Shown here piece after piece: positions 16,703-39,683 of a DNA stretch of 64,000 nucleotides. The stretch spans positions 1-64,000 of the forward strand of contig CANDCH010000002.1 of assembly GCA_947383145.1 (NCBI GenBank), in the 5' to 3' direction. Below the pieces are notes generated by a model. It saw nothing but the letters and a program-made list of their open reading frames with translations. It was not told the DNA's origin and ran no database searches. The stretch is from an uncultured bacterium (GTDB taxonomy: Bacteria; Bacillota; Clostridia; Oscillospirales; Oscillospiraceae). Position 1 is the first letter of the stretch; every line of letters starts with the position of its first letter. Made by a program: the position numbers and the translations under genes.

Positions 16703-16835
16703 GGACAGCCGCGCAGGCGAGCTTGGACCGAAGCGAAGGCAAAAGCCCAGGGGCCGCGCAGCGGCACCGGATTTTGCCTGAGTCGGAGGGAAAGCGGTCC
16801 GGCAGCGCGGCCAATCCGAGCGTGACAACATCGTA
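16703..16835 (+). repeat. Post-stop hairpin repeat, copy A (after dacF)
   Basis: Core hairpin 16738-16778: outer arms GGCAAAA/TTTTGCC and an inner GGCCGC-gca-GCGGCA stem. Flanks GGACCGAAGCGAA before and TGAGTCGGAGGGAAAGCGG after match the other copies at 20.6, 25.1, 26.9, 28.6-28.9 and 38.3 kb. It begins directly after the dacF stop and is the only plus-orientation copy, matching the plus orientation of dacF. Confidence 0.85.
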
Positions 16836-16874
16836 GCGGAATGCCCTTTCCCCGCCGGGGTGCGGCCTCCGGCG

Positions 16875-16989
16875 GGGTACTTTCTCTCATGTGAGAGAAA
16901 GTACCCAAAGAGAACACTTAAGGGGAGAAATCCGGCTCGGCTTCGAGCGCCAAGGGCGCGCTCTCGCTCGCAGAATTTCTCCCCTTAAG
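16875..16989. repeat. Double perfect palindrome block
   Basis: Two nested inverted repeats with perfect 15-bp arms: GGGTACTTTCTCTCA (16875-16889) with its complement at 16892-16906, and CTTAAGGGGAGAAAT (16917-16931) with its complement at 16975-16989. The loop of the second holds a GC-rich 43-nt segment. It sits between the convergent dacF and murC. The remaining 16990-17152 is GC-rich with no gene that can be supported. Confidence 0.8.
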
Positions 16990-17152
16990 AATCCCCATTA
17001 CGGGGGAGCCCGATACGCCGCGCGGACGCGGACCCTCCCGGCGCGCGCGGCCTTCGACTGGCGTCCCCCTATTTGCGCTGCCGCCTGTGCCCGGTCACTG
17101 ACAGGCTGGAAGGGTCCACCACCCGCGCCTCCGGGGCGGGCCGCTCGGGATG

Positions 17153-18532
17153 TTATGCTTCCTTCACCAGCGCCTCGCCCGCGAGGTAGATATCCCCCGC
17201 GCCCACCGTTAAGATCAAATCCCCCGGCTGGGCCAGGCGGCGCAGCTTGGCCGTCACGTCCTCCAGGGTGGGGCAGAACACGCTGCCGGGAATTTTCGCC
17301 GCCAGATCCGCCGAGGAAATGCCGATGTCGTTGTCCTCCCGGGCGGCGAAAATCTCCGCCAACAAGGTGACGGCGGGCCGCTTCAGCACCTCCACGAAGT
17401 CGTTGAACAGCTCGTGGGTGCGGGAATAGGTGTGGGGCTGGAAGGCGCAGATCACCCGCTTGAAGTCCAGCGCCGCCGCCGTGTCGAACAGCGCCGCCAG
17501 CTCGCCGGGGTGGTGGGCGTAATCGTCGCACACCTCCGCGCCGTTGTACATCCCCTTGTACTCAAACCGGCGGCCCGGAAGCCGGAAGTCCCGCATTCCG
17601 TCCTCCACCGCCCTCCCCGGCACCCCCAGGGCCAGGGCCGCCGCCGCCGCCGCGACGGCGTTTTTCACGTTGTGCATCCCCGGCACGGACAAGTCCAGAT
17701 GGGCGTACTTTTCTCCCCGGTGGACCACGTCAAAGGAGCCGAAGCCGTGGGCCATGGACAGGTTCTCGGCGTGAACGTCCCCCGTCTCTATACCGAAGGT
17801 CATGACCGGCCGGGTCTCCCCCCGGAGGGTGGCCATGGTGTTCTCGTCCTCGCAGTTGGCCACAATGAGGCCATTCGCCGGCACCTTGTCGGCAAAGGCC
17901 CGGAAGGAGCGCTCCACGTCGTCCAGATCCTTGAAAAAATCCAGGTGGTCGGCCTCCACGTTGAGGATCACCGCCACCGTGGGGTAAAAGGACAGGAACG
18001 AGTTGCAGTATTCGCAGGACTCCAAAATGATGGTGTCCCCATGGCCCACCCGGTGGCCCGCCTCCAGCAGGGGCAGGGTGCCGCCGATCATCACGGTGGG
18101 GTCCCGCCGGGCCGCCATAAAGATGTGGGTGCACATGGAGGTGGTGGTGGTCTTGCCGTGGGTGCCCGAGATGCACAGGGCGTTTTGATAGTCCCGCATG
18201 ATGGCCCCCCAGGCCTGGGCCCGCTCGAACACGGGGATTCCGGCGTCCAGGGCGGCGGCGATTTCGGGGTTCTCGTTGTGGACGGCGGCGGTGCGCACCA
18301 CGCAGTCCGCCCCCCGGACGCTCTCGGGCAGGTGTCCGATCACCACCGGGATGCCCAGGTCGCGCAGGTGGAGCACGGTGGCGCTCTCCCGCTGGTCGGA
18401 GCCGGTGACCGTCACCCCCGCCCCGTGGAGCACCTCCGCCAGGGACGCCATGGACACCCCGCCGACGCCCACCAGATGGGCCCGCTTCCCCGGCTGCAAA
18501 TAGTCGCGGATGTTGTTCGCTTCCATATTCAT
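17153..18532 (-). CDS. murC: UDP-N-acetylmuramate--L-alanine ligase
   Basis: 459 residues, normal length. It adds L-Ala to UDP-MurNAc in the cytoplasm, the first peptide step of peptidoglycan synthesis. The N-terminal Rossmann domain has HLVGVGGVSMASLAE, the ATP-binding P-loop is GTHGKTTTT, and downstream DYAHHP is the family signature of the ligase C-terminal domain. Two in-frame ATGs (18532 and 18526) are possible; neither has a strong ribosome site. It is monocistronic, well away from a dcw cluster, as often in Clostridia. Confidence 0.95.
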   Translation of the reverse strand: MNMEANNIRDYLQPGKRAHLVGVGGVSMASLAEVLHGAGVTVTGSDQRESATVLHLRDLGIPVVIGHLPESVRGADCVVRTAAVHNENPEIAAALDAGIPVFERAQAWGAIMRDYQNALCISGTHGKTTTTSMCTHIFMAARRDPTVMIGGTLPLLEAGHRVGHGDTIILESCEYCNSFLSFYPTVAVILNVEADHLDFFKDLDDVERSFRAFADKVPANGLIVANCEDENTMATLRGETRPVMTFGIETGDVHAENLSMAHGFGSFDVVHRGEKYAHLDLSVPGMHNVKNAVAAAAAALALGVPGRAVEDGMRDFRLPGRRFEYKGMYNGAEVCDDYAHHPGELAALFDTAAALDFKRVICAFQPHTYSRTHELFNDFVEVLKRPAVTLLAEIFAAREDNDIGISSADLAAKIPGSVFCPTLEDVTAKLRRLAQPGDLILTVGAGDIYLAGEALVKEA

Positions 18533-18581
18533 TACCCCATATCCCAGCGTTTTTCAACGCATTTTCACAATTTGGCAACTC

Positions 18582-18610
18582 ATTATACAATGGGCCGGAG
18601 GAAAATGCAA
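18582..18610 (-). promoter_or_regulatory. Promoter of murC
   Basis: Minus-strand TTGCAT (18610-18605), 17 nt, TATAAT (18587-18582), about 50 nt upstream of the start. Confidence 0.75.
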
Positions 18611-18670
18611 CCTGTAAATCAGTATAAGCGGGGGGATGGGGTTTTAGACGGGGCGGACGGGCCGTTGGGC

Positions 18671-18702
18671 AAAAAAACATCCCGGCGGTCTCCCGCCGGG
18701 AT
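18671..18702 (-). terminator. Terminator of the padR operon
   Basis: A 10-bp perfect stem (ATCCCGGCGG/CCGCCGGGAT) with a 4-nt loop followed on the minus strand by seven T residues, 20 bp after the stop of the DUF1700/DUF4097 gene. Confidence 0.92.
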
Positions 18703-18721
18703 AGTTCTGTTGCAATCCGTC

Positions 18722-19933
18722 CTACTGGAAATCTATGTTCACGTCCCCCAGGTCGCTTTTGGCCTCCAACTGATAGGGGTAGCTCCCCTTCTGCTCCGCC
18801 TTGTCGCCCCGGCCCGTGCCGTTCACCCTCACCTTGCCCAGGCTGCACTTCAGCTCGTACCCGCACTCCTGCTCCGAGCAGCCCAGGGTGGCCTCTACCT
18901 GGCCCAGGTTGGTCTCCAGCTCGATCTCCAGTCCCTCGAACAGTTCCTCCAAACCCAAGGTCACATCGCCCATATGGCTGTCCAGGGTAAGCTCCTTCAC
19001 CACCCGCGAATCATAGCACTCCACCTCGCCCAAATCACTTTTGGCCTCCAGCTCCTGGGCGGACACGCCGTATACCTCCACGTCGCCCAGGTTGGTTTTG
19101 GCGTTCAGCTTCTTCTCCACCGTCAGCTCGGACAGGAAAATGTCCCCCAGGCTGGTCTTGATATCCGCCTTCTCCAGCCGGACATGATCCGGCACTGTGA
19201 TACTCACATTCAAGCTGTGTTCCCCCACCAGCCCGTTCAGGTTCATTTGGAAGCCGCCCGGTCTCGCGTCCTGGATTTTCAGCCTGCCGTCCTCAATCTT
19301 CCACTTCAGCTCATAACCGCCCAGGTCGCCCACCCGCGTAATGGACAGGGAGTAGTCACTCCCGGCGGTCACTGTAATCCCGCCGAAGCTGATCTCCGCG
19401 TCAATGCCGGAGAACGCGTTCAGACAGCCGTCCTCCTGGGACCAGAAGCCCTCGCCAGCCGCCTTGTTACCCTCGTCCTCTTGATAGACCGCCCCGCTGT
19501 CGGAGCCCACCGGGTCATGCTCATAGGCGGTGCCGAACTGGGCGTTGTCCACCGCCTCCACCACTGCGGTCTGCTCTGCCTCCTGCCCGACGAACCGCCC
19601 CACCAAACGCCCGATCTGGGCCGACGCGTACGCCACCGACATCCCCACGACGGCCACGCACACCAGCGTCCCCGCCAGCACCCAGGGCCACTTCTTCCGC
19701 CTGGGGGGCGTCCAGCTTTCCGCCTCCCGCTGGGTGACGTAGCCGCCCTCCACCGCCAGACGGCAGGACAGGGCCCAGGGGTCCCCCAGCTCGGCCACCA
19801 CCTGAGCCTCCCGGTCCGGCCCGGCCTCCTCGAAATATTCCGCGTAGTAGCGCAGGATGTCCTGCCGCTCCCGCTCGGGCACCCAGCGGGCCAGCCCCTC
19901 CGCCAGCTCAGCCAAATAAGTAAGTTTGTCCAT
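18722..19933 (-). CDS. DUF1700-DUF4097 membrane protein
   Basis: 403 residues in three parts. Residues 1-70 are a DUF1700-type helical domain that starts with a PERERQDILRYYAEYFEEAG motif. One membrane helix lies near residues 95-115. From about 170 to the end a repetitive beta-rich domain shows rungs such as KSDLGEVECYD, KTNLGDVEVYG and ETNLGQVEATL, the DUF4097 putative-adhesin solenoid. Proteins of this kind are usually encoded with a PadR repressor and are linked to envelope stress; the precise role is not known. It overlaps the padR gene by 26 nt. Confidence 0.85.
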   Translation of the reverse strand: MDKLTYLAELAEGLARWVPERERQDILRYYAEYFEEAGPDREAQVVAELGDPWALSCRLAVEGGYVTQREAESWTPPRRKKWPWVLAGTLVCVAVVGMSVAYASAQIGRLVGRFVGQEAEQTAVVEAVDNAQFGTAYEHDPVGSDSGAVYQEDEGNKAAGEGFWSQEDGCLNAFSGIDAEISFGGITVTAGSDYSLSITRVGDLGGYELKWKIEDGRLKIQDARPGGFQMNLNGLVGEHSLNVSITVPDHVRLEKADIKTSLGDIFLSELTVEKKLNAKTNLGDVEVYGVSAQELEAKSDLGEVECYDSRVVKELTLDSHMGDVTLGLEELFEGLEIELETNLGQVEATLGCSEQECGYELKCSLGKVRVNGTGRGDKAEQKGSYPYQLEAKSDLGDVNIDFQ

Positions 19934-20246
19934 CTTGCTCCTCCTCCTTCAAAAGCTCCTCCACGCCGTCCCGGAACTGCTTCCACTCCTCCCGCCGCCG
20001 GGCCAGCTGGGTCCGGCCCACGGGGGTGATGGCGTAATACCGGCGGTTGCGGCCCTGATAGGGCCGGTCGTAGACCTTCAACAGCCCATCCCGCTGCAAG
20101 CGCCGCAGCACCGGGTACAGGGTGGACTCAGAGATATCCAGCCGCGCCTTCACCTGCTGGGTGAGGATATAGCCGTAGGCGTCCCCCCGGGACAGCACCG
20201 CCAGCACACAGCCGTCCAGCAGCTGGGGACTGATTGCAAAGGCCAT
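19908..20246 (-). CDS. PadR-family transcriptional regulator
   Basis: 112 residues from the ATG at 20246 with AAAGGAG 8 nt upstream. The winged helix runs through GYILTQQVKARLDISESTLY (split over the turn and recognition helix) and LRRLQRDGLL, with the wing YQGRNRRYYAIT. It is a small PadR-like repressor with a short C-terminal dimerisation helix. The operon partner is the DUF1700/DUF4097 protein, with which it overlaps. A perfect inverted repeat over its own -10 element suggests autoregulation. Confidence 0.92.
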   Translation of the reverse strand: MAFAISPQLLDGCVLAVLSRGDAYGYILTQQVKARLDISESTLYPVLRRLQRDGLLKVYDRPYQGRNRRYYAITPVGRTQLARRREEWKQFRDGVEELLKEEEQDGQTYLFG

Positions 20247-20390
20247 CGTGCTCACTCCTTTCGCCGCCGCAGGCTCTATGACGCCCGCCGTTCTCCGAAA
20301 AAGCGGAGGCATTCCGCTGCGGCCGTTCTCCCCGCGCGTCCCACCCGGCGGGCGTTCGCGGGGGACCTGATCAAGCTTTGCTCTTCGAAC

Positions 20391-20423
20391 AATATTATAT
20401 TCTGTATAATATTGCTTTGTCAA
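20391..20423 (-). promoter_or_regulatory. padR promoter with palindromic operator
   Basis: Minus-strand TTGACA (20423-20418), 18-nt spacer, TATAAT (20399-20394). A perfect 9-bp inverted repeat, AATATTATA (20391-20399) and TATAATATT (20405-20413), covers the -10 and spacer, the expected place for PadR binding. Binding is inference. Confidence 0.75.
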
Positions 20424-20466
20424 TATAGAGCGGAACGGTTTTACAAATTCTTAAAAAATATCAAAA

Positions 20467-20492
20467 GAGCGCCCCCGGGCAGGGGGGCGCTC
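20467..20492 (-). terminator. Terminator of the mreB transcript
   Basis: A 10-bp stem (GAGCGCCCCC/GGGGGCGCTC) followed on the minus strand by TTTTGATATTTTTT. A second perfect 11-bp stem (20510-20520 with 20528-20538) lies just before it in the same transcript. Confidence 0.8.
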
Positions 20493-20558
20493 CGCGCTTT
20501 TGCTGGGGCCCCGCAAAGCCGGCCTTTGGCTTTGCGGGAAAAGGAGGGGCAGCAAAGT

Positions 20559-20799
20559 AAGCGAGCTTTTGCCGTCAGGCGGAAGCGAGCGATACGCAGC
20601 TTGCCCCGACGCTGTCACGCTGCGAACCGGCCAAGGCGTTTGGCCGCTTCTCCTACGACTCAGGCAAAATACAGATTTGCTCCGCAAATCTTGGTTTTTT
20701 GCCTTCGCTTCGGTCCATCCGCACTGCTCATGACGGCTCCGCGCTTCTTTGTTGTCACGCTCCGCTCCATCCGCGCTGCTCACGACGGCTCCGCGCTTC
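20559..20799 (-). repeat. Post-stop hairpin repeat, copy B (after mreB)
   Basis: Core hairpin 20663-20703 with outer GGCAAAA/TTTTGCC and an AT-rich inner stem ATTTGC/GCAAAT around a 3-nt loop, unlike the GC stems of other copies but still paired. A second partial unit with the GAGCCGTCGTGAGCAGCGCGGATGG-type motif lies between it and the mreB stop. Read on the mreB sense strand, the order is stop, flank, hairpin, as in all other copies. Confidence 0.85.
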
Positions 20800-21822
20800 T
20801 CAGTTCATCTGCTGCCTTCTTCCGATATTCATGGTGCCGTCCTGCATACTGTCGATGGTGTCCAGGCTCCGGCCGGTGCCGTGGGCCACGCAGGAGATGG
20901 CGTCGTCAGCCACATAGGTCTCAATGCCGGTATGGGATTCGATCAGCTTGTCAAAGCCCCAGACCAGCGACCCGCCGCCGGTCATGATAATGCCGTTGCT
21001 GGAGATATCGGCAACCAGCTCGGGGGGCGTGCGCTCCAGCACGCCGTGGATGGCCTCCAGAATGCGGGAGCAGGGCTCCTCGAAGGCCTCGATCATCTCG
21101 CCGGAGGTGACGGAGAACACCCGGGGCAGGCCGGTCATGAGGCAGCGGCCCTTGACCTCCATGGAGATCTCCTCCGGCCGGGGGAACACGCAGCCGATGG
21201 TCATTTTCAGTTCCTCCGCCGTGCGGTCGCCGATGAGCACGTTGTGCCGTTTGCGGATGTACTTCACCACGGCCTCGCTGAAGGCGTCGCCCGCCACCTT
21301 GATGGAGGCGGACTCCACAATTCCGGACAGGGAGATCACGGCGATGTCTGCGGTGCCGCCGCCGATATCCACCACCATGTGGCCGTCGGGCTGGGTGATG
21401 TCCACCCCCGCGCCAATGGCGGCGGCCAAGGGCTCCTCAATGAGGTACACCCGGCGGGCGCCCGCCTGGATGCCCGCGTCGATGACGGCGCGCTCCTCCA
21501 CCTCGGTGATGCCGGAGGGCACGCAGATCACCACCCTGGGCTTGAACAGGTGGACGGGGGCCACCTTGCGGATGAACTCCCGGAGCATCCGCTCGGTCAT
21601 GTCGTAGTCGGAAATCACGCCGTCCCGGAGGGGGCGGATGGCCACGATGTTGCCGGGGGTCTTGCCCAGCATCTGCTGGGCCTCGGTGCCCACCTTCAGC
21701 AGCTTGCCGGTGTTCTTGTCCAACGCCACCACGGAGGGCTCCCGCAGGACGATCCCCTTGTCCTTGATATAGACCAGCACGCTGGCCGTGCCCAGGTCGA
21801 TGCCGATATCTCTTGCAAACAT
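20800..21822 (-). CDS. mreB: Rod shape-determining actin homologue
   Basis: 340 residues from the ATG at 21822, 7 nt after AGGAG; an upstream in-frame GTG overlaps the ribosome site. MreB filaments on the inner membrane face direct lateral wall synthesis. Actin-fold motifs are present: DIGIDLGTASVLVY (phosphate 1), DIGGGTADIAVISL (phosphate 2) and the adenosine motif MTGGGSL. No mreC or mreD follows; instead the transcript ends in a repeat copy and terminator, so this may be a solo MreB/Mbl-type paralogue. Confidence 0.95.
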   Translation of the reverse strand: MFARDIGIDLGTASVLVYIKDKGIVLREPSVVALDKNTGKLLKVGTEAQQMLGKTPGNIVAIRPLRDGVISDYDMTERMLREFIRKVAPVHLFKPRVVICVPSGITEVEERAVIDAGIQAGARRVYLIEEPLAAAIGAGVDITQPDGHMVVDIGGGTADIAVISLSGIVESASIKVAGDAFSEAVVKYIRKRHNVLIGDRTAEELKMTIGCVFPRPEEISMEVKGRCLMTGLPRVFSVTSGEMIEAFEEPCSRILEAIHGVLERTPPELVADISSNGIIMTGGGSLVWGFDKLIESHTGIETYVADDAISCVAHGTGRSLDTIDSMQDGTMNIGRRQQMN

Positions 21823-21923
21823 AGCATTCACTCCTGTATTGATCCCGCGGGGCCGTCTGTGGGCAAGTCTGCCCCAAAAACGCCCTGCGTAGTCATATCT
21901 AAAATACCCACTGCGGGTATATC

Positions 21924-21952
21924 TTCATACTATTGTCAATCATACTAGACAA
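21924..21952 (-). promoter_or_regulatory. Possible mreB promoter
   Basis: Minus-strand TTGTCT (21952-21947), 17 nt, TATGAA (21929-21924), about 95 nt upstream of the start. It is moderate; the stronger promoter at 22384-22412 could also supply mreB. Confidence 0.4.
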
Positions 21953-22074
21953 TCCCCGATTTTGCAAGCTTTTTTCCCAAATGCACTCCTTAATTTTTCA
22001 TAAGGAAACCCCTCATTTTTCGTCGGAATGCCCGCCGGGCAGCGGAGCGGACGGTGCGGAGTCTGCCCCGACGA

Positions 22075-22377
22075 CACCAAGCCCCCAGCCGTCCTACTCA
22101 CGCGGCTGGGGGCTTACTTCTGGGTTTGATTGTCCAAGGGCCGTTACCTTCGCTTTCTTCCGATTCTTCTTCGGATGTGTTTGCGTTGGGGGTCCGCCTG
22201 AAACGTTTGTCTCCCTGTTTCCTCAAACAATGGCAGGCTTCAGACTGAATCTGGCTTCCGTCGCTTTCATAAGCGTGTTTGGAACGAGCCGAGGCTTCGT
22301 TTCACTTTGCGTTTCCCAATCGCAGAAAGTGGTTGGTGCGTTCTACGTTAGTACATTGGACTCACCTTTTCCTTTCT
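22075..22377 (-). ncRNA. Candidate structured RNA upstream of mreB
   Basis: A 660-bp gap has no convincing ORF, but a consensus promoter (22412-22384) fires into it. The predicted minus-strand RNA contains a chain of short hairpins (CACTTT/AAAGTG, CGCTT/AAGCG, CAGA/TCTG, nested GCCTG+GTTTG/CAAAC+CAGGC, TCCGA/TCGGA, AAGG/CCTT) and a long-range pairing GTCCAA near its 5' end with TTGGAC near its 3' end. It ends in a perfect 13-bp stem at 22079-22115. I do not recognise it as RNase P RNA, tmRNA, SRP RNA or 6S. It may be a free RNA or a long mreB leader, because no T run follows the last stem. Confidence 0.6.
22079..22115. terminator. 13-bp stem-loop at the 3' end of the candidate RNA
   Basis: AAGCCCCCAGCCG (22079-22091) pairs perfectly with CGGCTGGGGGCTT (22103-22115). 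No T run follows on either strand, so it may be a terminal stem rather than a full terminator. Confidence 0.5.
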
Positions 22378-22383
22378 GTCTGT

Positions 22384-22412
22384 ATTGTACTATATACCCG
22401 TGGGTTTGTCAA
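22384..22412 (-). promoter_or_regulatory. Strong promoter of the candidate RNA
   Basis: Minus-strand TTGACA (22412-22407), 17 nt, TACAAT (22389-22384). Predicted start near 22377. Confidence 0.8.
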
Positions 22413-22442
22413 CACCTTTTTGTGAGATTTTTAAAAATTTTT

Positions 22443-22473
22443 GGGCCGGTCCCGCCCTTCGCGGGGCCGGCCC
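22443..22473 (-). terminator. Terminator at the end of the phage-like cluster
   Basis: GGGCCGG/CCGGCCC outer stem with an inner CGC stem, followed on the minus strand by AAAAATTTTT, directly behind the last baseplate gene. Confidence 0.75.
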
Positions 22474-22484
22474 AATGCGCCCGG

Positions 22485-23081
22485 TCAGTCCGCCGCGTCC
22501 TGGAAGCCGTCGTTTTCCGTGGCCACGCCGTACCAGCTCAGGCCCGTGGCGGCGGCGTCCCCCCAGGTGGGGTGGCGCAGGGCGGCCATCCCCCAGGTAT
22601 TGTACCAGAACACATAGGACACGTCCACATGACTGGGCAGAATGTCCTCGATGATGAGCCTCAGCTGGGCGAAGCCCTCCGGAATGCCCGCCACGTCGGG
22701 GAAGTACACCTTCACATATCCCGGCCTGCCGGCCTCCTCCGCCCTGGCGTTGAGGCCGCATCCACGCAGGGTGTCGTTGATGGCGGCGGTGGTGAAGCTG
22801 TCCCCGTTGATGCGCAGCAGCGCGGCCAGCGCCTGCCGCCGCTGTCCCGCTGTCTCGCACACCGGGCGGTAAGGCAGCAGCGCCTCGATCCGCTCCAGCC
22901 CGAAATCTTCCGCGGTGGTCAGATTCATCTCCCGGGCGGTGTGGTCCAGCTCCCCCGCCGCCCCGTCCAGCCTGACGCCATAGGCCGCCAGCTCCCCCCG
23001 GTTGATGGTTCCGGGTCTCAGGTCATATACCCCCAGCGGCCGGAGCAGGGCCGCCATACAGTCTTCAAAGCGTAACGTCAC
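22485..23081 (-). CDS. Phage tail protein, DUF2313 (XkdU/YmfQ-like)
   Basis: 198 residues. The N-terminal part (LRFEDCMAALLRPLGVYDL then AAYGVRLDGAAGELDHTAREM) and the later LPSHVDVSYVFWYNTW segment fit the DUF2313 family, encoded just after the gpJ-like baseplate protein in PBSX and Mu-like phages and thought to sit at the baseplate edge. Its start overlaps the gpJ-like stop by 4 nt (ATGA). It is the last gene of the cluster: no fibre or fibre-assembly gene follows. Confidence 0.82.
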   Translation of the reverse strand: MTLRFEDCMAALLRPLGVYDLRPGTINRGELAAYGVRLDGAAGELDHTAREMNLTTAEDFGLERIEALLPYRPVCETAGQRRQALAALLRINGDSFTTAAINDTLRGCGLNARAEEAGRPGYVKVYFPDVAGIPEGFAQLRLIIEDILPSHVDVSYVFWYNTWGMAALRHPTWGDAAATGLSWYGVATENDGFQDAAD

Positions 23082-24160
23082 CCGCTCTCACCGCCCGCTT
23101 CCGCTTCCGCGCCGTTTTCGATGGTCAGCGCCCCCAGCACCGGCAGCGTCACGCTGTCCAGAGGCAGGTCGGCCTCCGGCCGGAGCAGCAGGCAGTTTGC
23201 CACCCCGTCCACGGCGTAAATCAGCGACACCAGTTGGGCGCGGGGCAGGGGCCGCCCCAGCCGCTCCCCGTTGAACCAGCCCTCCAGCCGGTCTCTCACC
23301 GCCCGGGCCACCCCGGCGAATTCCCGGCCCTCCTCCACCCACAGCCGGACGGACACGTTCACCGTCTCCGCCGCGGGCGCCAGCACCTTCACGTCGCAGG
23401 CAATCTCCCGCACCCCGTCGAAGTAGCTCTGGAGGGCGGCAATCAGCTCCCCGCCGGGCACGCCGCCGGGGGCGGCGGGTACGATGTCCACCGTGCCCAC
23501 CCCCCGGTTCCGGGGCAGCACCGCCACCTCCGCGACCCCGTCAAAGGACATGGCGGCCTGCCGGTAAAAGGCGCTGTTGGCCCCGTTTGCCAGCCGCCGG
23601 TAGGTGGCCAGCACCCGGGCCCGGAGGGACTCGTCCCCCTCCTGGTCCCGCCCGCTGGACAGCGGCTCCGGGTTGGCGCAGGCCACAATGCCCGTGGGGG
23701 GGAGGGCCATGTATACGATGGTGTTCTGGCCCACATTGCCCGCCGCGCCGGCCTCCGCCGCCGTCACCGGCAGCTCGCAGCAGGTCTGCCCCGCCGGCAC
23801 CACGCCCGCCGCGCCGGTGAGAAACCGCACCCCTCCTGCGGTCATGCACACCGTCCCCGCCGGCACCTCCGTGTCCACCTCACGGCCCTGGTCCACATAG
23901 AACCGCACCGTTCCCACGGCGGGGGCGGCGCTCCGCCGGGACACTCCCCGCAGGGCGGCGTGCTTATCCAGCTCCTCCCCTTGGGCCGTCTGGGGAAAGC
24001 ACTGCCTCCGGGTCCACTCCGCCTGGACATACAGGCTGTATATCTGGGCGGCCACCGCGTAGAACCGCACCGCCAGCTCGCTGCTTCCCCCGGCGGTCTG
24101 GCCGGTCTGGCTCTGGAATTCCGAGGCCAGTCCCTGGTAGATTTCCTCTAACGTTATCAA
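23078..24160 (-). CDS. Baseplate J-like protein (XkdT)
   Basis: 360 residues. The N-terminus has the wedge-protein pattern SELAVRFYAVAAQIYSLY and the characteristic LDKHAALRGVSR; the middle has EVPAGTVCMTAGGVRF and the family-typical VGQNTIVYMALPPTGI loop, and then a second domain with LRARVLATYRRLANGANSAFY (split). GpJ-like proteins join the baseplate wedge to the hub in contractile tails. Length and motifs are complete. It is 4 nt from the gpW-like gene and overlaps the DUF2313 gene. Confidence 0.9.
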   Translation of the reverse strand: MITLEEIYQGLASEFQSQTGQTAGGSSELAVRFYAVAAQIYSLYVQAEWTRRQCFPQTAQGEELDKHAALRGVSRRSAAPAVGTVRFYVDQGREVDTEVPAGTVCMTAGGVRFLTGAAGVVPAGQTCCELPVTAAEAGAAGNVGQNTIVYMALPPTGIVACANPEPLSSGRDQEGDESLRARVLATYRRLANGANSAFYRQAAMSFDGVAEVAVLPRNRGVGTVDIVPAAPGGVPGGELIAALQSYFDGVREIACDVKVLAPAAETVNVSVRLWVEEGREFAGVARAVRDRLEGWFNGERLGRPLPRAQLVSLIYAVDGVANCLLLRPEADLPLDSVTLPVLGALTIENGAEAEAGGESG

Positions 24161-24164
24161 TCTC

Positions 24165-24515: not shown

Positions 24516-24538
24516 CTCATTCTCCCCCTTCCGTGCTC

Positions 24539-24961: not shown

Positions 24962-25229
24962 GGCGTTGTTCTCCTTTCATTATCATGCTCCGCGTCCCCG
25001 CGCCGCTCACGACGGCTCCGCGCTTCCTCGTTGTCACGCTGCAAAGCGGCCAGACCGCTCGCTCGCTTTCCCTCCGCCTCGGGCATAATTCGGATTTGCT
25101 CCGCAAATCTTCGCCTTTTGCCCTCGCTCCGGTCCAAGCTCCCTCGCTGTCCGCTTCTTCGCGCTTCCTCGTTGTCGCGCTGCGAAGCGGCCAGACCGCT
25201 CGCTCGCTGTCCGCTTCTTCGCGCTTCTT
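24962..25229 (-). repeat. Post-stop hairpin repeat, copy C
   Basis: Core hairpin 25081-25123: outer GGGC/GCCC plus inner ATTTGC/GCAAAT around a 3-nt loop. Flanking GCTTGGACCGGAGCGA and GCGTGACAACGAGGAAGCGC modules occur twice. In the sense of the upstream XkdQ-like gene it begins immediately after its stop. It separates two phage genes that are normally adjacent. Confidence 0.85.
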
Positions 25230-26749: not shown

Positions 26750-26764
26750 CTCTTCCCCCCTCAT

Positions 26765-26978
26765 TTTGTCTCATTGAGCGCGGCCCGCCGCTCACGGCGG
26801 CTCCGCGCTCCCTCGCTGTCCGCTTCTCCGCGCTTCCTCCCTGTCACGCTGCGAAGCGGCCAGAACGCTCGGTCCCTTTCCCTTCGTCTCGGGCAGAACC
26901 CGCCTCCGCTGCGCGGCGGCTGGGCTTCTGCCCTCGCTCCGCTCCAAGCTCCCTCGCTGTCCGCTTCTCCGCGCTTCC
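26765..26978 (-). repeat. Post-stop hairpin repeat, copy D
   Basis: Core hairpin 26891-26933: outer GGGCAGAA/TTCTGCCC (the A-to-G and T-to-C changes compensate each other relative to GGCAAAA/TTTTGCC) and inner CCGC-tgc-GCGG. Flanks match copy C closely. It starts right after the stop of the acidic protein gene, in that gene's sense. Confidence 0.85.
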
Positions 26979-28151: not shown

Positions 28152-28152
28152 C

Positions 28153-28566: not shown

Positions 28567-28599
28567 TGTATTCCCTCCTTGTATCCTGAATCCGCGTCT

Positions 28600-28900
28600 C
28601 GCCTGCTCGCGGCGCGCGGCGGCTCGAACGCTATACCGCATCCACGTCTCGCCTGCTCGCGACGCGCGGCTTCCCTCCGGCTCAGGCAAAACCCAGTCCC
28701 GCTGCGCGGGCCTTGGCTTTTGCCTTCGCTTCGGTCCATCCGCGCTGCTCGCAACGGCTCGAACGCTATACCGCATCCACGTCTCGCCTGCTCGCGACGC
28801 GCGGCTTCCCTCCGGCTCAGGCAAAACCCAGTCCCGCTGCGCGGGCCTTGGCTTTTGCCTTCGCTTCGGTCCATCCGCGCTGCTCGCAACGGCTCGAACG
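28600..28900 (-). repeat. Post-stop hairpin repeat, copies E1 and E2, in a 135-bp tandem duplication
   Basis: Hairpins 28685-28724 and 28820-28859 are identical (GGCAAAACC ... CCCGC-tgc-GCGGG ... TTTTGCC). The units 28621-28755 and 28756-28890 are an exact 135-bp tandem copy and a third start of the unit (28891-28902) reaches into the sheath stop codon. The duplication is therefore recent or maintained. As with other copies it begins right behind the stop of the gene upstream in sense. Confidence 0.9.
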
Positions 28901-31117: not shown

Positions 31118-31128
31118 GGCCGCGCCCC

Positions 31129-33136: not shown

Positions 33137-34146
33137 CAGACGGTGAGCACCCGGCTGGCGTCCTCAAAGATCTTGGCATAGCCGGAAATGGTGGTGATGG
33201 CGGCCCGCTCCAGCTGGCGGTCGATGATCTTGTCGTATTCCACCATCACGTCGCCGGCCTTGACCATCTCCAGGGCGTAATTTTTGTCCAGGCCGATGAT
33301 GCTGCCCTTGGGCACGGCGGAGGAGCGCAGCGCCTTGGCCCCCAGGGGGGTGATGAGCCTGCCGGTGCCGTGGAAGTCCAGGCCGGCCACGGCGTCCTGC
33401 ATCTGGCTGAGTCCCAGCAGCTGGGGCATGGTGTCTGCGCCCACCAGCAGGGTGTTGAGCTGATAGGGCTCAAAGCTGTTCCAGAAGGCCAGCAGGTCCT
33501 GATAGGTCAGCTTGCCCTTGGTCTCCACGGAGCTGGTCTGGGCGGGGTTGCCGTTGCCGTCGCCGTTGAGGATGACGCCGATGGCGTCCTCCAGGTGCAT
33601 CCGGCCGATCTGCGCGCCGATCTGGCGCAGGGCGACGGAGAACAGGTCCAGCTTCTGGAATCGGATGGCCTCATAGGAGGCCACCAGCATCCGGCCCCGC
33701 TTGTGGAGCTTCACCAGGGCGTCCCGGGTGCGCACGGTGGTCTGGGGGATGGCCGCGCCCTCGGCCACCTGCTTGAGCGCTTTCTCGTCCTGGGGGACGG
33801 AGGTGATGGAGCGGTAGTCCATCCCCTGGATGAGGGTCTCGGTGGCGGTGATGTCGGGGAGGATATTGGCCTCCTCCATGCCCACCTTCACCGCCCGGGC
33901 GATGTACTCGGGGAAGAGCACCGCCGACTGGGCGGTGGAGAAAAACTTGTCCACCAGGTCGGAGCCCGCGCCCTTCACCCGGATGTCGAAGCGCTTGAGC
34001 TGCCGCTGATAGGCGTCCAGCCCCTCCAGGGCGGTGCCCCGGTACTGCTCGCTGGGGTCCAGCTTTTCCAGCACCTGGGTGAAGGATTTCCCCGCCTCGT
34101 GGTACATCCCCTTTTCCAGCTTCACATTGTCGAATCTCTGCGCCAT
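33136..34146 (-). CDS. Major capsid protein (HK97 fold)
   Basis: 336 residues from the ATG at 34146, after AAGGAGGAATGGGT. N-terminal helix KLEKGMYHEAGKSFTQVLEKLDP, the SAVLFPEYIARAV and GMDYRSITSVPQ segments, and the C-terminal GAKALRSSAVPKGSIIGLDKNYALEMV are typical of HK97-type coats encoded with PBSX-like tails. It is intact by length. It lies just after a small decoration-like gene and just before the portal. Confidence 0.85.
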   Translation of the reverse strand: MAQRFDNVKLEKGMYHEAGKSFTQVLEKLDPSEQYRGTALEGLDAYQRQLKRFDIRVKGAGSDLVDKFFSTAQSAVLFPEYIARAVKVGMEEANILPDITATETLIQGMDYRSITSVPQDEKALKQVAEGAAIPQTTVRTRDALVKLHKRGRMLVASYEAIRFQKLDLFSVALRQIGAQIGRMHLEDAIGVILNGDGNGNPAQTSSVETKGKLTYQDLLAFWNSFEPYQLNTLLVGADTMPQLLGLSQMQDAVAGLDFHGTGRLITPLGAKALRSSAVPKGSIIGLDKNYALEMVKAGDVMVEYDKIIDRQLERAAITTISGYAKIFEDASRVLTV

Positions 34147-34169
34147 ACCCATTCCTCCTTTTTCCGCCG

Positions 34170-34517
34170 TCAAAGCTTCACAACCACGGTCCCAGTCCCG
34201 GCGTCCACCGCCAGCACCAGGCACTGGAGCCCGCCGGTGGCCGCGATTTTGACGCCGCCCTTGCCGTCGCAGGCCAGGGCCTGCCAGCCGGTCCCGGGGG
34301 CGGCGCCGCTGTAGCCCACCTTGGCCGCGCCGCCGATCTGGACCGCCGCCGCGCCGCCCCGCACGCCGCCCAGCGCCACGCCGCAGGGCAGTGCGCCGTC
34401 CGCGCCCTTGCGCACGGCCCCTCCGGCGGTGAGGGCCACCGCCATGCCGGGCAGGACCTCGCCCTCCGCCGGGAAGGTGGCGGCCGTCTGGCCGACGCCA
34501 TCGAAACAGATATCCAT
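34170..34517 (-). CDS. Capsid decoration-like protein
   Basis: 115 residues, Gly/Ala-rich and beta-rich (GEVLPGMAVALTAGGAVRKG, GVALGGVRGGAAAVQIGG, LQCLVLAVDAGTGTVVVKL), consistent with small head decoration or stabilisation proteins placed next to capsid genes. Good AAGGAGAGGAG site. The 130 bp upstream of it (34518-34650) are non-coding, with GC-rich stems, and could hold a second promoter of the cluster, but none is clear. Confidence 0.6.
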   Translation of the reverse strand: MDICFDGVGQTAATFPAEGEVLPGMAVALTAGGAVRKGADGALPCGVALGGVRGGAAAVQIGGAAKVGYSGAAPGTGWQALACDGKGGVKIAATGGLQCLVLAVDAGTGTVVVKL

Positions 34518-34650
34518 GTTTCTTCTCCTCTCCTTGCTGAAATATTTATAGAAATCCCCTGTTTAGGGCATTCCTCATCAATGCGGAGGGTCCGCGGGGG
34601 CACGCCGTCCACCCCGGGGCGGAAAGGCCGCCGGAGGCCCTGGGCGGGCC

Positions 34651-35889
34651 TCAGAACGCCCCCCGCTCCACATAGGCGGCGGCGCTCCCGCCGCCCTCCC
34701 GCTCCAGGCTCATCACAAAGTACCGGATGTCGTCCATGGCGTGGTCGTTCTCCTTTTTCACCCGGTCCATGGTCCGGTCGTCCTCCCAGCGGTAGGCGGC
34801 GAACTCCCGGGCGGCGGCCCCGCACCCCCGGCAGATCACGATTTTCCCGGATTTCAGGGCCTCCGCCGTCCGGCGGATGCCCTCCAGCACTCGGTTGTCG
34901 GCCTTACGGACGGTCCAGCCCGCCCGCCGCAGGGCCTCGATGAAGCTGGCCGCCGACGGGTCCGCGACCACCAGCTCGATCTCCCGCCCCCCGGCCAGCG
35001 CTTCCAGGTCCCGGACGTACTCCCCGTCGGTTTTCTGCCGCCCCTCCGCCCGGGCGTCGTAATAGTATTCACGGACTCTGTACCACGTCCCGTCCAGCTC
35101 GCCCCACAGCCCGAAGGAGGCGGGGTTCCGGGTGCCGTAGTCGCAGGAGATCCGCCAGCGGCGGAAGGGGCCCGGCGGTGCCTGGGGCATTTGCTTCCGC
35201 CGGAAGAAGTCGTACACCAGCCCCTGGCTGGCCACCCACTCCCCCAGCACATACCGCCGGTAAAAAACGCCCTGGAACAGCCGCGCGTACCGCTCCCTGG
35301 TCCGAAGGGACAGCCTGGGGTTGTCCTCCATGGTGAAGCGCAGGTACAGCAGCCGCTTCTCCTGCGCCCTTTGAATCCACTCCCGGTAGAACCAGTGCTC
35401 CGGCCCGGCGGGGTTGCAGGAGAACCACAGCTTTCCCCCCTCCACGGAGCACCGGGCGGCGGCCTGCTCCACGAAGGAGCGGGGCATGAGCGCCGCCTCG
35501 TCCAGCAGCACGCCCGCCAGGGTGGCCCCCTGGATGGAGGCGGCGCTGCCCTCGTCCCGCCCGCCGTAGAGGTAGAACCGGTTTTCCCGCCCTCCGCCCC
35601 GGAGGATCACCTCATTCCGGCTGACCCTTTCCTCCCACTGGAAGCCCAGCCCCTCCAGCACGGGGCGGGCCTGGGCCAGCAGGTTGCGCCGCGCGCCGTT
35701 GACGGACCCGGCGCACAGGCCGAACCGCTGCCGCCGGAAGCGGGCCATGGCCCACAGAAAGAAGGATACGGCCAGCGCGAAGGTTTTGCCCGAGCGCACC
35801 GCGCCGTCGCAGATGACGGCGTCATAGTCCTCCTCCCGCCACCAGTCCAGCACCCGGCGCTGCTTGGGGGAAAATTGGAGCCCGCTCAC
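34651..35889 (-). CDS. Phage terminase large subunit (PBSX type)
   Basis: 412 residues, complete. It cuts DNA and pumps it into the capsid. ATPase: Walker A GAVRSGKT (29-36), Walker B LLD130 E131, coupling motif FSCNP (157-160). Nuclease: Asp250 (ISCDYG), Asp310 (VVADPSA) and Asp386/Asp387 (HAMDDIRY), so all three acidic positions of the RNase H-like fold remain. The retained active sites argue that packaging function is still selected. It overlaps the small subunit gene by 4 nt. Confidence 0.93.
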   Translation of the reverse strand: MSGLQFSPKQRRVLDWWREEDYDAVICDGAVRSGKTFALAVSFFLWAMARFRRQRFGLCAGSVNGARRNLLAQARPVLEGLGFQWEERVSRNEVILRGGGRENRFYLYGGRDEGSAASIQGATLAGVLLDEAALMPRSFVEQAAARCSVEGGKLWFSCNPAGPEHWFYREWIQRAQEKRLLYLRFTMEDNPRLSLRTRERYARLFQGVFYRRYVLGEWVASQGLVYDFFRRKQMPQAPPGPFRRWRISCDYGTRNPASFGLWGELDGTWYRVREYYYDARAEGRQKTDGEYVRDLEALAGGREIELVVADPSAASFIEALRRAGWTVRKADNRVLEGIRRTAEALKSGKIVICRGCGAAAREFAAYRWEDDRTMDRVKKENDHAMDDIRYFVMSLEREGGGSAAAYVERGAF

Positions 35890-36206
35890 GTCTCACCGCC
35901 GCCCGTCTCCCGTCCCAGGCCGTCCAGGAACTCGCCCAGGGCCCCGTCCCTCCGCTCCTCCGCCAGCTCCCGCAGCATGGCCAGCACCCGCAGCTTGTCC
36001 ACGAACTTGGCCTCGAAAGCGCCGTTGGCGCCCCGTTTCAGCTCGGCCACCCCGGCGAGGTCCAGCCTGTCCACCTGCCCCGCGTCCTCCGGGCCCAGCA
36101 GGGACAGCTTCACCACGTCGTTGCTCTTCCAGCGGGCCAGCCTGCGCAGATAGGCGGTCAGCTCCCGCCGCGCCCTCTGCTCCTCGGTTTTTTTCTGTGT
36201 CTCCAT
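35886..36206 (-). CDS. Phage terminase small subunit candidate
   Basis: 106 residues from METQKK at 36206 with GAGGAGG 6 nt ahead. Helical: EEQRARRELTAYLRRLARWKSNDVVKLSLL, then a coiled stretch KFVDKLRVLAMLRELAEERRDG. It lacks an obvious helix-turn-helix, unlike PBSX XtmA, so DNA recognition may be weak or non-specific, as in gene transfer agents. The identification rests mainly on position directly before the large subunit and on size. Confidence 0.65.
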   Translation of the reverse strand: METQKKTEEQRARRELTAYLRRLARWKSNDVVKLSLLGPEDAGQVDRLDLAGVAELKRGANGAFEAKFVDKLRVLAMLRELAEERRDGALGEFLDGLGRETGGGET

Positions 36207-36278
36207 CCCAAACCTCCTCACGGCCCGCCGCTGGAACATGCGTTTTGTTGCCTGTTCCGGTGCAAGGCGCAAAAAAAT

Positions 36279-36303
36279 TTCCGGGACGGCTTCCGTCCCG
36301 GAA
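36279..36303 (-). terminator. Terminator just ahead of the phage-like cluster
   Basis: Perfect 11-bp stem (TTCCGGGACGG/CCGTCCCGGAA) followed on the minus strand by seven T residues. It stops minus-strand transcripts 70 bp before the small terminase gene, so the cluster needs its own start. Only a poor match (TTGCGC-N17-AACAAA) is visible between 36206 and 36270. Confidence 0.88.
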
Positions 36304-36310
36304 AAAAGGG

Positions 36311-36346
36311 GCGCCCCGCGAAAAGGCCTTGCTTTTCACGGGGCGC
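36311..36346 (+). terminator. Plus-strand stem-loop overlapping a promoter
   Basis: GCGCCCCG (36311-36318) pairs with CGGGGCGC (36339-36346), extended by AAAAG/CTTTT, then six T residues. The T run merges into the -10 element of the promoter at 36329-36357. Confidence 0.7.
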
Positions 36347-36357
36347 TTTTTTATAAT
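36329..36357 (+). promoter_or_regulatory. Promoter of the broken gene at 36389
   Basis: TTGCTT (36329-36334), 17 nt, TATAAT (36352-36357), nested inside a terminator-like hairpin and its T run. Confidence 0.6.
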
Positions 36358-36388
36358 GATATCAAGCCGAACATTGAGGAGGGCCGTC

Positions 36389-36701
36389 ATGCTGTATCAC
36401 GGAACAACAATACCTGGCCTGCGCGCCGTCAAAGCGAACTCAAAATTCCACGCCTCGGGCAGGCCGGTGGCCTATTTCACCTGCGACCGGAGCTGCGCGC
36501 TGGCCTGCTTCCGGGACAGGAGCGAAAACTTTGTCACCATGGGGCTTGGCGGGGACGGGCGGCGGCGTCATACACAGGTATCGGGAAATCGACCCCGCCG
36601 AGCAAAAAATGCACGCGAACTACATCAAGGAGCGCCTGGACGGGGAGCGTGAGGAGATGCGGCGGTTTTATCTCGCCCACTTTTCGCCGCTGTGGGACTG
36701 A
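36389..36701 (+). pseudogene. Broken gene of an unknown protein
   Basis: A good start (GAGGAGG then ATG at 36389) opens a frame with plausible protein sequence (YHGTTIPGLRAVKANSKFHA, then GRPVAYFTCDRSCALACF) up to about 36555. Sequence of equal quality then continues in another frame (GVIHRYREIDPAEQKMHANY, then EEMRRFYLAHFSPLWD, stop at 36701). The two parts are too short for the parent protein, so an internal deletion with a frame change is likely. I do not recognise the family beyond the HGT start motif shared by various nucleotide-handling or unknown proteins. Confidence 0.65.
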
Positions 36702-36731
36702 GCCGGCGGAGGCCGCTCCTTCCCGCGCCTC

Positions 36732-37214: not shown

Positions 37215-37290
37215 ATCATCCACCCCCGGCGCGGAGCCAATTCCCCCGCTTCTCTCCCCGCAAGACCCGAAGGGCTGCCTTGCGGGCCCG

Positions 37291-38076: not shown

Positions 38077-38147
38077 AGGCGTTCCTCCTCTCCGCTGCGG
38101 AGCCGGAGCGCGCTTCGCGGCGGAAAATCTCTCTTTTTCACAAATAT

Positions 38148-38174
38148 GCCGGAAAGAGCAGCGCCCTTTCCGGC
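38148..38174 (-). terminator. Stem-loop after murA
   Basis: GCCGGAAAG (38148-38156) pairs with CTTTCCGGC (38166-38174); in the murA sense it follows repeat copy F and is followed by ATATTTGTG, so it is a weak terminator. Confidence 0.55.
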
Positions 38175-38189
38175 AGTTATTCCATATTT

Positions 38190-38384
38190 TGGCGTTGCCC
38201 TGGGCTTTTGCTTTCGCTCCGCTCCATCCGCGCTGCTCACGATGGCTCCGCGCTATCCATTCACGCTGCGCCTGTTCGCGGCGCGCGGCTTCGCTGCGCC
38301 TCCAGCAAAACCCGGCCCAACTTCGTTGGCCCTGGGCTTTTGCTTTCGCTCCGCTCCATCCGCGCTGCTCACGACGGCTCCGCG
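38190..38384 (-). repeat. Post-stop hairpin repeat, copy F (after murA)
   Basis: Core hairpin 38304-38344: AGCAAAA/TTTTGCT outer arms (again a compensated change) and inner CCAAC-ttc-GTTGG. A 61-bp direct repeat of its second half lies 132 bp away (38198-38259 and 38330-38391 region). It abuts the murA stop on the murA sense strand. Confidence 0.85.
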
Positions 38385-39683
38385 CTATCCGGCGATATTG
38401 GCCTTTTTCTGCTCCGGGTCGGGGACCTCCACCACCCGGATATCCGCGCCCAGGCCGGACAGCTTTCCGATGATGTCCTCATAGCCCCGCTCAATGTGCT
38501 TCACGTTGGAGATCTCGCTGGTGCCCTGCGCGGCCAGTCCGGCGATAATCATGGCCGCTCCGGCCCGGAGGTCGCAGGCCTCCATGGGCGCTCCGGTGAG
38601 CTTCTCCACACCCTCGATGATGGCGATTTTGCCGTCCACCTGGATTTTGGCCCCCAGGCGGCGGAACTCCTCGGTGTAGCGGTAGCGGTTGTCCCACACG
38701 CCCTCCGTGATGACGCTGGTGCCCCGGGCCAGGCAGAGCACGGCGGCAATCTGGGGATGCATATCGGTGGGAAAACCGGGGTAGAACATGGTTTTCACAT
38801 TGGTGCGCTGAAGGGCGCCGTGCCGCCGGACAATGATGCTGTCCCCCCGCTCCTCCACCTCGGCGCCCATCTCCAGCAGCTTGGCGGTGATGCACTCCAG
38901 GTGCTTGGGGATGACGTTGCACACCCGCACCTCGCCTCCGGCGGCGGCCACCGCGGCCATATAGGTGCCTGCCTCGATCTGGTCGGGGATGATGGAGTAC
39001 TCCCCGCCCCGGAGCTTTTCCACGCCCCGGATTTTGATCACGTCGGTGCCCGCTCCGGTGATCTCCGCCCCCATGGAGTTGAGAAAATTGGCCAAATCCA
39101 CGATATGGGGCTCCTTGGCGGTGTTTTCAATGACGGTGGTGCCCTCCGCCAGCACGGCGGCCAGCATCAGGTTCATGGTGGCCCCCACGCTGGCCACGTC
39201 CAGGTATATCTGGCTGCCCTTCATGCGCCCCCCCTTGGCGGCGGCGCACATATAGCCCTTTTCCACGGTCACGTCCGCCCCCAGGGCGGCCAGACCCTTG
39301 AGGTGCTGGTCGATGGGGCGGCTGCCGAAGTCGCATCCGCCGGGCAGGGGCACCTCGGCGCGGCCGAACCGGCCCAGCATGGCGCCCAGCAGGTAGTAGC
39401 TGGCCCGGAGCTTCCGCCCCGCGTCATAGGGCACGGTCATGCACCTGGCCCCGGCGCAGTCCACCTCCACGGTGGTGCGGTTGATCATGCGCACGCTTGC
39501 GCCCAGGTCGCGCAGAATATTCAAAAGCAGGTCCACATCGCTGATGGCGGGAATATTTTCAATGCGGCAGGGCCCTTCCACCAGCAGGGCGGCGGGGATG
39601 ATGCCCACGGCGGCGTTCTTTGCGCCGCTGATCTCAACCCTGCCATACAGCGGACGCCCGCCGTGAATCACATACTTTTTCAA
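38385..39683 (-). CDS. murA: UDP-N-acetylglucosamine 1-carboxyvinyltransferase
   Basis: 432 residues from a TTG at 39683 (reads KKYVIHGGRPLYG after the initiator) with AGAGGTG 6 nt upstream. Catalyses the first committed step of peptidoglycan synthesis with PEP. The family SGAKNAAVGIIPAALL core with the PEP-binding Lys and the later LRASYYLLGAMLGRFG (catalytic-loop region with an unusual Cys position earlier, GARCMTV) are present. The active-site Cys of fosfomycin-sensitive enzymes lies in a GCXXG-type loop; here the loop reads PLPGGCDFGSRP, so Cys is kept. Own promoter at 39841-39813. Confidence 0.94.
   Translation of the reverse strand: MKKYVIHGGRPLYGRVEISGAKNAAVGIIPAALLVEGPCRIENIPAISDVDLLLNILRDLGASVRMINRTTVEVDCAGARCMTVPYDAGRKLRASYYLLGAMLGRFGRAEVPLPGGCDFGSRPIDQHLKGLAALGADVTVEKGYMCAAAKGGRMKGSQIYLDVASVGATMNLMLAAVLAEGTTVIENTAKEPHIVDLANFLNSMGAEITGAGTDVIKIRGVEKLRGGEYSIIPDQIEAGTYMAAVAAAGGEVRVCNVIPKHLECITAKLLEMGAEVEERGDSIIVRRHGALQRTNVKTMFYPGFPTDMHPQIAAVLCLARGTSVITEGVWDNRYRYTEEFRRLGAKIQVDGKIAIIEGVEKLTGAPMEACDLRAGAAMIIAGLAAQGTSEISNVKHIERGYEDIIGKLSGLGADIRVVEVPDPEQKKANIAG

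Follow-up and report, generated by a model that had tools for sequence, protein, structure and literature searches.

Interspersed palindromic repeats of bacteria include the REP elements and the BOX elements. In the available text of a survey of the GTAG and CGTC super-families (PMC3733652, Di Nocera et al. 2013), REPs are palindromic repeats of 20-40 bp with a patchy copy number. Those located between unidirectional open reading frames (ORFs) keep close, in the genomes shown there, to the upstream ORF's 3′ end, and their distance from the next one varies; between convergent ORFs the stated distance is <20 bp. The same text reports that the termini of GTAG REPs often supply a TAG stop, that GT pairing is "often observed", that many families are mostly in opposite orientation and that one super-family has no dedicated transposase; Firmicutes are not among the phyla it gives for REPs. 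BOX elements of Streptococcus pneumoniae are described, in the portion of the source at hand, as modular, with variable tandem internal modules, folded if transcribed, judged parasitic, provided with terminal inverted repeats and target-site duplications, enriched between convergent genes and patchy in relatives (PMC3049150, Croucher et al. 2011). For IS200/IS605 ends and REPtrons, a partly available account gives a folded single DNA strand as the enzyme substrate and insertion as strand-specific (PMC6006769). Here we describe a dispersed repeat behind stop codons in a stretch of 64,000 nucleotides (hereafter the window) from an uncultured bacterium of the family Oscillospiraceae (assembly GCA_947383145.1, contig CANDCH010000002.1, positions 1 to 64,000).

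We consider it probable that this repeat is a non-autonomous interspersed palindromic repeat of the REP/BOX kind, belonging to one bacterial family (Oscillospiraceae), and that its sense strand matters as folded DNA. The first-pass annotation of the window had found no described family that fits; as a kind, the repeat does fit the interspersed palindromic repeats (REP, BOX). No published description of the repeat itself was found in a literature search in which subscription journals were thinly covered.

Unit architecture and covariation

The repeat unit is about 135 nt long (range 132-138 nt) and consists, from 5′ to 3′, of GAAGCGCGg, an outer arm, GGAnCGnAGCGA, a hairpin, GAGnCGnAGnGAA, the second outer arm and GCGTGACAAC. 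The spacing between the purine-rich conserved strands flanking the hairpin is 43 nt in 124 of 174 distinct strand pairs and 38-46 nt in 168 of them; these are the distinct half-motif pairs in about 1.4 Mb, retrieved with search motifs that favour consensus copies. One extra hairpin (+30 to +53 nt) lies between the conserved strands in five pairs. Units often stand in head-to-tail arrays with a period of about 135-141 nt, and arrays reach at least three units.

For the sense strand, a fold is predicted in which the hairpin sits on GA/GA and GnA/GnA internal loops, with the variable outer arms closing the structure. In the lower helix, the n of GGAnCG is paired with the n of AGnGAA (C-G 39, G-C 38), and a purine-pyrimidine pair lies beneath the hairpin (G-C 59, A-U 38); both are additions to the hairpin described in the first-pass annotation. 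The outer arms GGCAAAA/TTTTGCC, the variants GGCAGAA/TTCTGCC and AGCAAAA/TTTTGCT, and the inner stems named there are all present, and the pattern GGCAAAA-N(8-30)-TTTTGCC occurs four times in the window against 0.01 expected. The hairpin loop is a triloop in 101 of 107 copies, with purine-N-A in 74 (GNA in 42 of these), and the loop-closing pair is C-G in 97 of 107. In the genome of the window, 44 of 52 triloops are purine-N-A; 158 terminator-like hairpins of the same species include 31 triloops, of which 5 are purine-N-A.

Among 107 distinct copies, the 23 pairs of the fold are 91.5% paired. Pair cells changed on both sides number 350, compared with 109 in shuffles (standard deviation 11.6; none of 500 shuffles as high), and such double changes are present in 21 of the 23 pairs. 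Sliding the partners against each other abolishes the signal. In a set of 12 copies from the window's own genome, double changes account for 27 pair cells, with no cell changed on a single side to another standard pair. The outer arms co-vary as well: the mean pairing score is 13.6 for arms of the same copy and 10.7-11.5 for arms of different copies (20 shuffles; 175 distinct of 183 copies). The complementary changes in the stems, which had been noted by eye as paired substitutions, are therefore real.

Distribution, position and orientation relative to genes

A covariance model built from the 12 own-genome copies gave 73 matches at E<=0.1 in that genome, one of which was dropped as an antisense reading of a palindromic copy. 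Matches occur in 33 of 42 genomes of the genus, at 0 to about 105 copies per genome. A sample of 295 genomes of the order was searched under stricter filters, with few candidates from each genome being scored; 9 of them match, and these 9 belong to one family. Named records with the repeat, among the matches listed, are metagenome-assembled genomes called Oscillospiraceae, Clostridiales, Bacillota or just bacterium.

Placement was assessed with a codon-model gene caller seeded from five window genes with Pfam matches, including a baseplate-hub (XkdQ/gp44-like) gene at 25.2 kb whose gp44-like domain match lies just under the cut-off; for other species, 102 genome stretches were fetched, of which 80 were examined, along with one viral contig. 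In the own genome, a same-strand gene precedes 49 of the 58 copies that come first in their array; for 35 of the 49, its stop lies 11-35 nt before the core (the part matched by the model), i.e. at or inside the 5′ end of the unit. For other species the corresponding figures are 80 of 100 copies and, with the stop within 11-36 nt, 54 of 80. Within co-directional gaps, the unit lies in sense in 40 of 46 cases in the own genome (p=3e-7) and in 73 of 83 elsewhere (p=6e-13). The 5′ end of the unit is <=5 nt from, or overlaps, the upstream stop in 27 of 40 own-genome cases, where uniform placement predicts 7.0, and in 48 of 73 in other species, where it predicts 9.7; the maxima in 20,000 simulations were 16 and 20, respectively. 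Since orthologous copies of several species were counted separately, the placement p values are optimistic. The orientation bias and stop adjacency first seen in the window thus hold genome-wide against controls, and random placement was not seen.

Of the own-genome copies with both neighbours called, 40 of 56 lie between co-directional genes. Stops abutting a unit are TAA in 30 cases, TAG in 16 and TGA in 15, compared with 218, 82 and 330 among all called genes, so that TA-containing stops are enriched (46 of 61 versus 300 of 630); stops inside the unit are mostly TGA (19 of 28). A second genus yielded seven copies; by a crude ORF rule, each of them has a stop 30-35 nt ahead of its core, and 13 copies in two further genera are mixed in placement. 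A subfamily (AAGGCCGGAGCGGAGCC..., with the flank TACAGGTTGCGGAG; L083, L085, L086, L058) is intergenic and often tandem; its four own-genome first copies have no same-strand gene upstream.

The window contains seven hairpin-bearing full units at six sites, together with several truncated or hairpin-less units. Seven of its 14 covariance-model rows score 77-95 bits and the other seven <=18 bits. The units and associated stops are as follows:

16694..16829, + strand: full unit at the end of the dacF-like gene (Peptidase_S11); core match 16724-16796
16700-16702, + strand: dacF stop TGA, inside the unit's first nine bases, GAAGCGTGA
20748..20799, - strand: hairpin-less half unit abutting the mreB stop
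20610..20747, - strand: full unit behind mreB; core match 20645-20717
25168..25227, - strand: hairpin-less partial unit, two As behind the hub-gene stop TAA (25230-25232)
25030..25167, - strand: full unit behind the hub gene; core match 25064-25136
24991..25029, - strand: truncated next unit, closing the hub-gene array
26841..26977, - strand: full unit with GGCAGAA/TTCTGCC arms, one base (G) behind the stop of a 185-aa ORF (26979-27536); core match 26874-26946
26780..26840, - strand: truncated next unit of the array behind the 185-aa ORF
28766..28900, - strand: first unit of the sheath array, abutting the stop of the phage sheath gene (Phage_sheath); core match 28802-28873
28631..28765, - strand: second unit of the sheath array, at a period of 135 nt; core match 28667-28738
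28588..28630, - strand: truncated third unit of the sheath array
38253..38384, - strand: full unit with AGCAAAA/TTTTGCT arms, abutting the murA stop (EPSP_synthase); core match 38286-38358
38193..38252, - strand: truncated second unit of the murA array

At all six sites the repeat lies in the sense of the upstream gene, as originally annotated. The accompanying statement that it starts immediately after the stop at each of them is close to correct. It is exact at sheath, murA and mreB, although at mreB the abutting piece is the half unit and the full unit begins 52 nt on. It does not quite hold at 26.98 kb, where one G intervenes, at 25.23 kb, where two As and then a half unit precede the full unit, or at dacF, whose stop lies within the unit. 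Comparison with relatives suggests that the dacF copy entered a few codons before the native stop.

On the - strand, bases of the gene end including the stop recur just before the next unit, as GTATAG in the sheath array (28631-28636 and 28766-28771) and as GGATAG before the second murA unit (38253-38258). Such recurrence is expected if arrays grow by duplications that include the flank, and in these two arrays growth seems to copy the host flank along.

Empty and filled orthologous sites

The gap between dnaK and dnaJ was compared in 28 genomes. It is short in 20 (48-89 nt where measured) and longer, with no copy seen, in three. G000, G054 and G002 hold differing arm types directly behind the TAA, G053 has a hairpin-less remnant and G014 a fragment. 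In addition, 26 own-genome sites were looked up in four close relatives, which gave 97 matches; the following refers to the sites read. Some are traceless: none of the four relatives has, for instance, any of the repeat behind the 26.9-kb gene or behind an acetate-kinase-like gene. At the rplA and rplI sites, arm types differ between species (rplA, rplI, rpsO and acetate kinase were named by eye from translations). G047 has an 8-nt stub behind rplI, which may be chance, and a 20-nt stub at the C1:114633 site, where G000 has three units. No clear target duplication was seen by eye at the dnaK and rplA junctions, and no systematic search was made. Insertion of IS200/IS605 elements proceeds without target duplication.

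Several of these sites bear on the idea that no transposition takes place at present and that an old repeat is spread by homologous recombination or gene conversion, with arrays arising by unequal crossing-over. Such a history would account for the tandem arrays, for the longer G047 stub and for the occurrence, at one site in different species, of different arm types between similar flanks, as with the dnaK 3′ flanks, which are alike in G054, G002 and G000. Recombination needs a resident copy, yet traceless sites are common among those read, and we regard this history as decidedly improbable.

Folding as RNA or as DNA

A selected RNA in which G-C pairs change to A-U should leave G-U intermediates. 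The RNase P RNA of the genus served as an RNA control (28 genomes; two of 30, G013 and G052, were dropped because the slice lacked the conserved GGAAAGTCCG), and its ratio of G-U to A-C is 269 to 19. For the repeat, the corresponding counts are 30 to 39 (the covariance model's 18 pairs), 19 to 22 (copies of the own genome) and 42 to 40 (those 15 of the 23 pairs that the pattern used to fetch copies did not constrain). In a cross-validation, with the structure derived from half of the sequences and counts taken from the remaining half, the ratio was 16.2 for RNase P RNA and 1.9 for the repeat. Overall, it is 0.8-2.4 for the repeat, depending on the structure used, and 14-16 for RNase P RNA. The G-U excess in the repeat is at most mild and does not approach that of the RNA control. 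According to the available part of the source, extraordinarily stable DNA mini-hairpins are formed by GNA loops on G-C pairs (PMC4686876), and the loop sequences of the repeat fit such structures. With moderate confidence we conclude that what maintains the complementarity of the arms is the folding of DNA when a copy arises or moves, not the folding of RNA in place.

This is the point at which a functional mRNA 3′-end element has to be weighed, i.e. an RNA that folds once translation has stopped, is retained by selection and either holds up exonucleases or adjusts read-through from one cistron to the next. REPs near stop codons of E. coli are reportedly able to stall ribosomes. The sense orientation, the stop adjacency, the positions between co-directional genes and sites such as dnaK-dnaJ, mreB and murA (and, by eye, rplA, rplI and rpsO) agree with an mRNA role, as do the strong RNA fold and those countings in which G-U exceeds A-C. 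An RNA role sits poorly with a G-U to A-C ratio far under that of the genus's RNase P RNA, with the many empty orthologous sites and with a copy number of 0-105 among species of one genus. As a terminator, the element would, through its copies at the hub, 26.9-kb and sheath sites, cut off the tail genes that follow, and it has no U-tract of its own: in the 107-copy alignment none directly follows the hairpin, the TTTT sitting within the stem and being followed by GCC. A terminator scan of 16600-36500, a range that leaves the murA copy outside, flagged only the inner stems of three copies (20.7, 28.7 and 28.8 kb), where T runs come a few bases later. An intrinsic terminator was rejected for lack of that tract, and selection for an mRNA function appears unlikely. 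The first-pass annotation had offered either a role in the 3′ end of messages or an element that inserts at stop codons. The latter fits better, because orthologous sites are empty or filled, copies vary from 0 to 105 in the genus, the preference for G-U over A-C falls far short of that in a true structured RNA of the genus and the hairpin lacks its own U-tract.

A number of observations speak against the reading as mobile, DNA-folded element. In seven of the 23 pairs, both positions are dictated by the fetching pattern. G-U outnumbers A-C by 42 to 25 over the free pairs once the badly aligned pair 23-62 is left out, by 69 to 52 over all 23 pairs, by 67 to 36 over 20 hand-named pairs and, for RNAalifold-picked pairs in all copies, which are partly different pairs, by 63 to 26 (one-sided, 52 to 16). 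Pair 6-81 shows 19 U-G and 1 C-A, but a C-A could hardly be seen there because the fetching pattern fixed G81. A low ratio of G-U to A-C could mean merely that copies are young, and neither GA loops nor purine-N-A triloops are confined to DNA. The sense strand outfolds the antisense strand in 160 of 166 cores under DNA parameters and in 153 of 166 under RNA parameters as well; with the sense strand favoured under both, modelled folding energy leaves RNA versus DNA undecided. Among the 58 own-genome copies, 9 have no same-strand gene upstream, as do 20 of the 100 from other species; some of these are perhaps misses of the gene caller (a copy on C45 follows, by eye, a lost ORF). A mover was also looked for. 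No match to the RAYT-type Y1_Tnp (PF01797) was found in any of the seven genus genomes with >=18 copies (G000, G002, G013, G014, G016, G018 and G022; 84-94% complete); incomplete assembly could hide the gene in one of these, but hardly in all seven. Y2, Rep_trans and RVT_1 (reverse transcriptase) were rejected as none tracks copy number, and no cargo-bearing unit was present among the 174 half-motif pairs. A 554-nt pair in L067, considered as an autonomous copy, spans an rplI-like gene, the wide spacing resulting from a mismatch between the motif and the copy's own 5′ strand.

Comparison with known families and possible mode of movement

Like the REPs described in the available text of the survey, the repeat is palindromic and patchy, has alternative complementary stem residues, lies close to stops at a variable distance from the next gene and supplies stops; stop-proximal placement as such is already in print for REPs (PMC3733652). 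In the broad sense of the term, we found a high copy number, intergenic location, complementary stems and a position close behind the upstream ORF. Unlike those REPs, it is a multi-helix unit of about 135 nt in head-to-tail arrays, with a strong orientation preference and little G-U excess.

Membership of a strict REP/REPIN family moved by RAYT, a Y1 HUH transposase, would be supported by the palindrome, the patchy high copy number and the closeness to ORF 3′ ends (as in the consulted part of PMC3733652). However, the conserved flanks GGAnCGnAGCGA and GAGnCGnAGnGAA contain no GTAG/GTGG or CGTC foot, the units are far from the 20-40 bp and mostly opposite orientation of REPs, and Y1_Tnp, absent from the copy-rich genomes, has matches in 10 of 18 genus genomes with fewer copies, so that its presence does not track copy number. 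Lacking the tag, the size and the RAYT, the repeat is REP/BOX-like, not a REP in the strict sense, and strict membership is highly improbable. The IS200/IS605 system, as far as the source at hand describes it, differs in the same respect, as it needs a Y1 transposase.

The likeness to BOX, compared by description and not by sequence, lies in modularity, array growth and patchiness in relatives; no terminal inverted repeat like that of BOX was noticed in the unit, though no systematic search was made, and the stop-codon and orientation rule has no counterpart in the available part of the BOX description (PMC3049150). Integron attC sites, which are defined by integrase core sites and gene cassettes, came into consideration since they fold single-stranded downstream of genes; the hosts of the present repeat are conserved genes of the chromosome. 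Rfam gave no match at the gathering score within the window, and for one copy two matches far under it (E 1.2 and 1.5).

As a non-autonomous palindromic repeat, the element would depend on some enzyme that moves or copies it while the sense strand is folded as single-stranded DNA, and this need, rather than one of the mRNA in place, would keep the arms complementary. Its position at gene ends may reflect a target preference for TA-containing stops combined with selection against insertions elsewhere; where a unit overlaps the last codons, it supplies the gene's stop. Copies within mRNA would form 3′ hairpins, which may protect or attenuate transcripts as a side effect. A more specific proposal, which we put forward as conceivable though doubtful, is RAYT-independent transposition in which an enzyme places the folded sense (non-template) strand, in one orientation, at TA-biased stops of transcribed genes, with the arms complementary through DNA-level templating and not through any role as RNA; DNA exposed behind the terminating ribosome is perhaps used as the target.

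The repeat extends palindromic repeats without a known mover to this Firmicutes family and is unusual in its large modular unit, its strong orientation preference and its rule of contact with the stop codon. Should the placement stem from an insertion preference, an as yet undescribed mechanism would recognise gene 3′ ends as a target. The natural pairs of empty and filled sites provide a means for finding the mover enzyme, and the comparison of G-U with A-C is a cheap DNA-or-RNA test for any co-varying hairpin repeat.

Phage-like region and additional repeats

A phage-like block (portal, capsid, sheath, hub) occupies 22485-36206, between mreB and murA. In G047 (C25) and in G053 (C26), a single contig carries the ends of dacF, the tail genes and murA. 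Together with matches to the tail-gene ends in four relatives, this suggests a long-resident or domesticated phage region. A phage origin of the repeat was considered, as three sites at 25-29 kb fall in the portal/capsid/sheath region, and rejected: the tail-gene ends match in four relatives too, and the sole match in a viral collection has the repeat behind an apparently cellular rlmH (by eye).

A second dispersed repeat (TCGGGGCAAGCTGCGTATCGC...GGCTTTGCGGGGCCCC) lies behind the mreB unit (20480-20609, - strand). It has 26 matches in 23 of the genome stretches examined, which include the window and may overlap. Inserts of about 100 nt are present in the RNase P RNA gene of G006, G046, G056 and G020, where the second-repeat query has no match, and a 109-nt relative of this repeat, 78% identical, lies inside the RNase P RNA gene of G016 (L373). 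Finally, an inverted repeat, CTTAAGGGGAGAAATcC...GaATTTCTCCCCTTAAG, was observed downstream of dacF (16914-16989), and similar sequence is present in G047 and G053.

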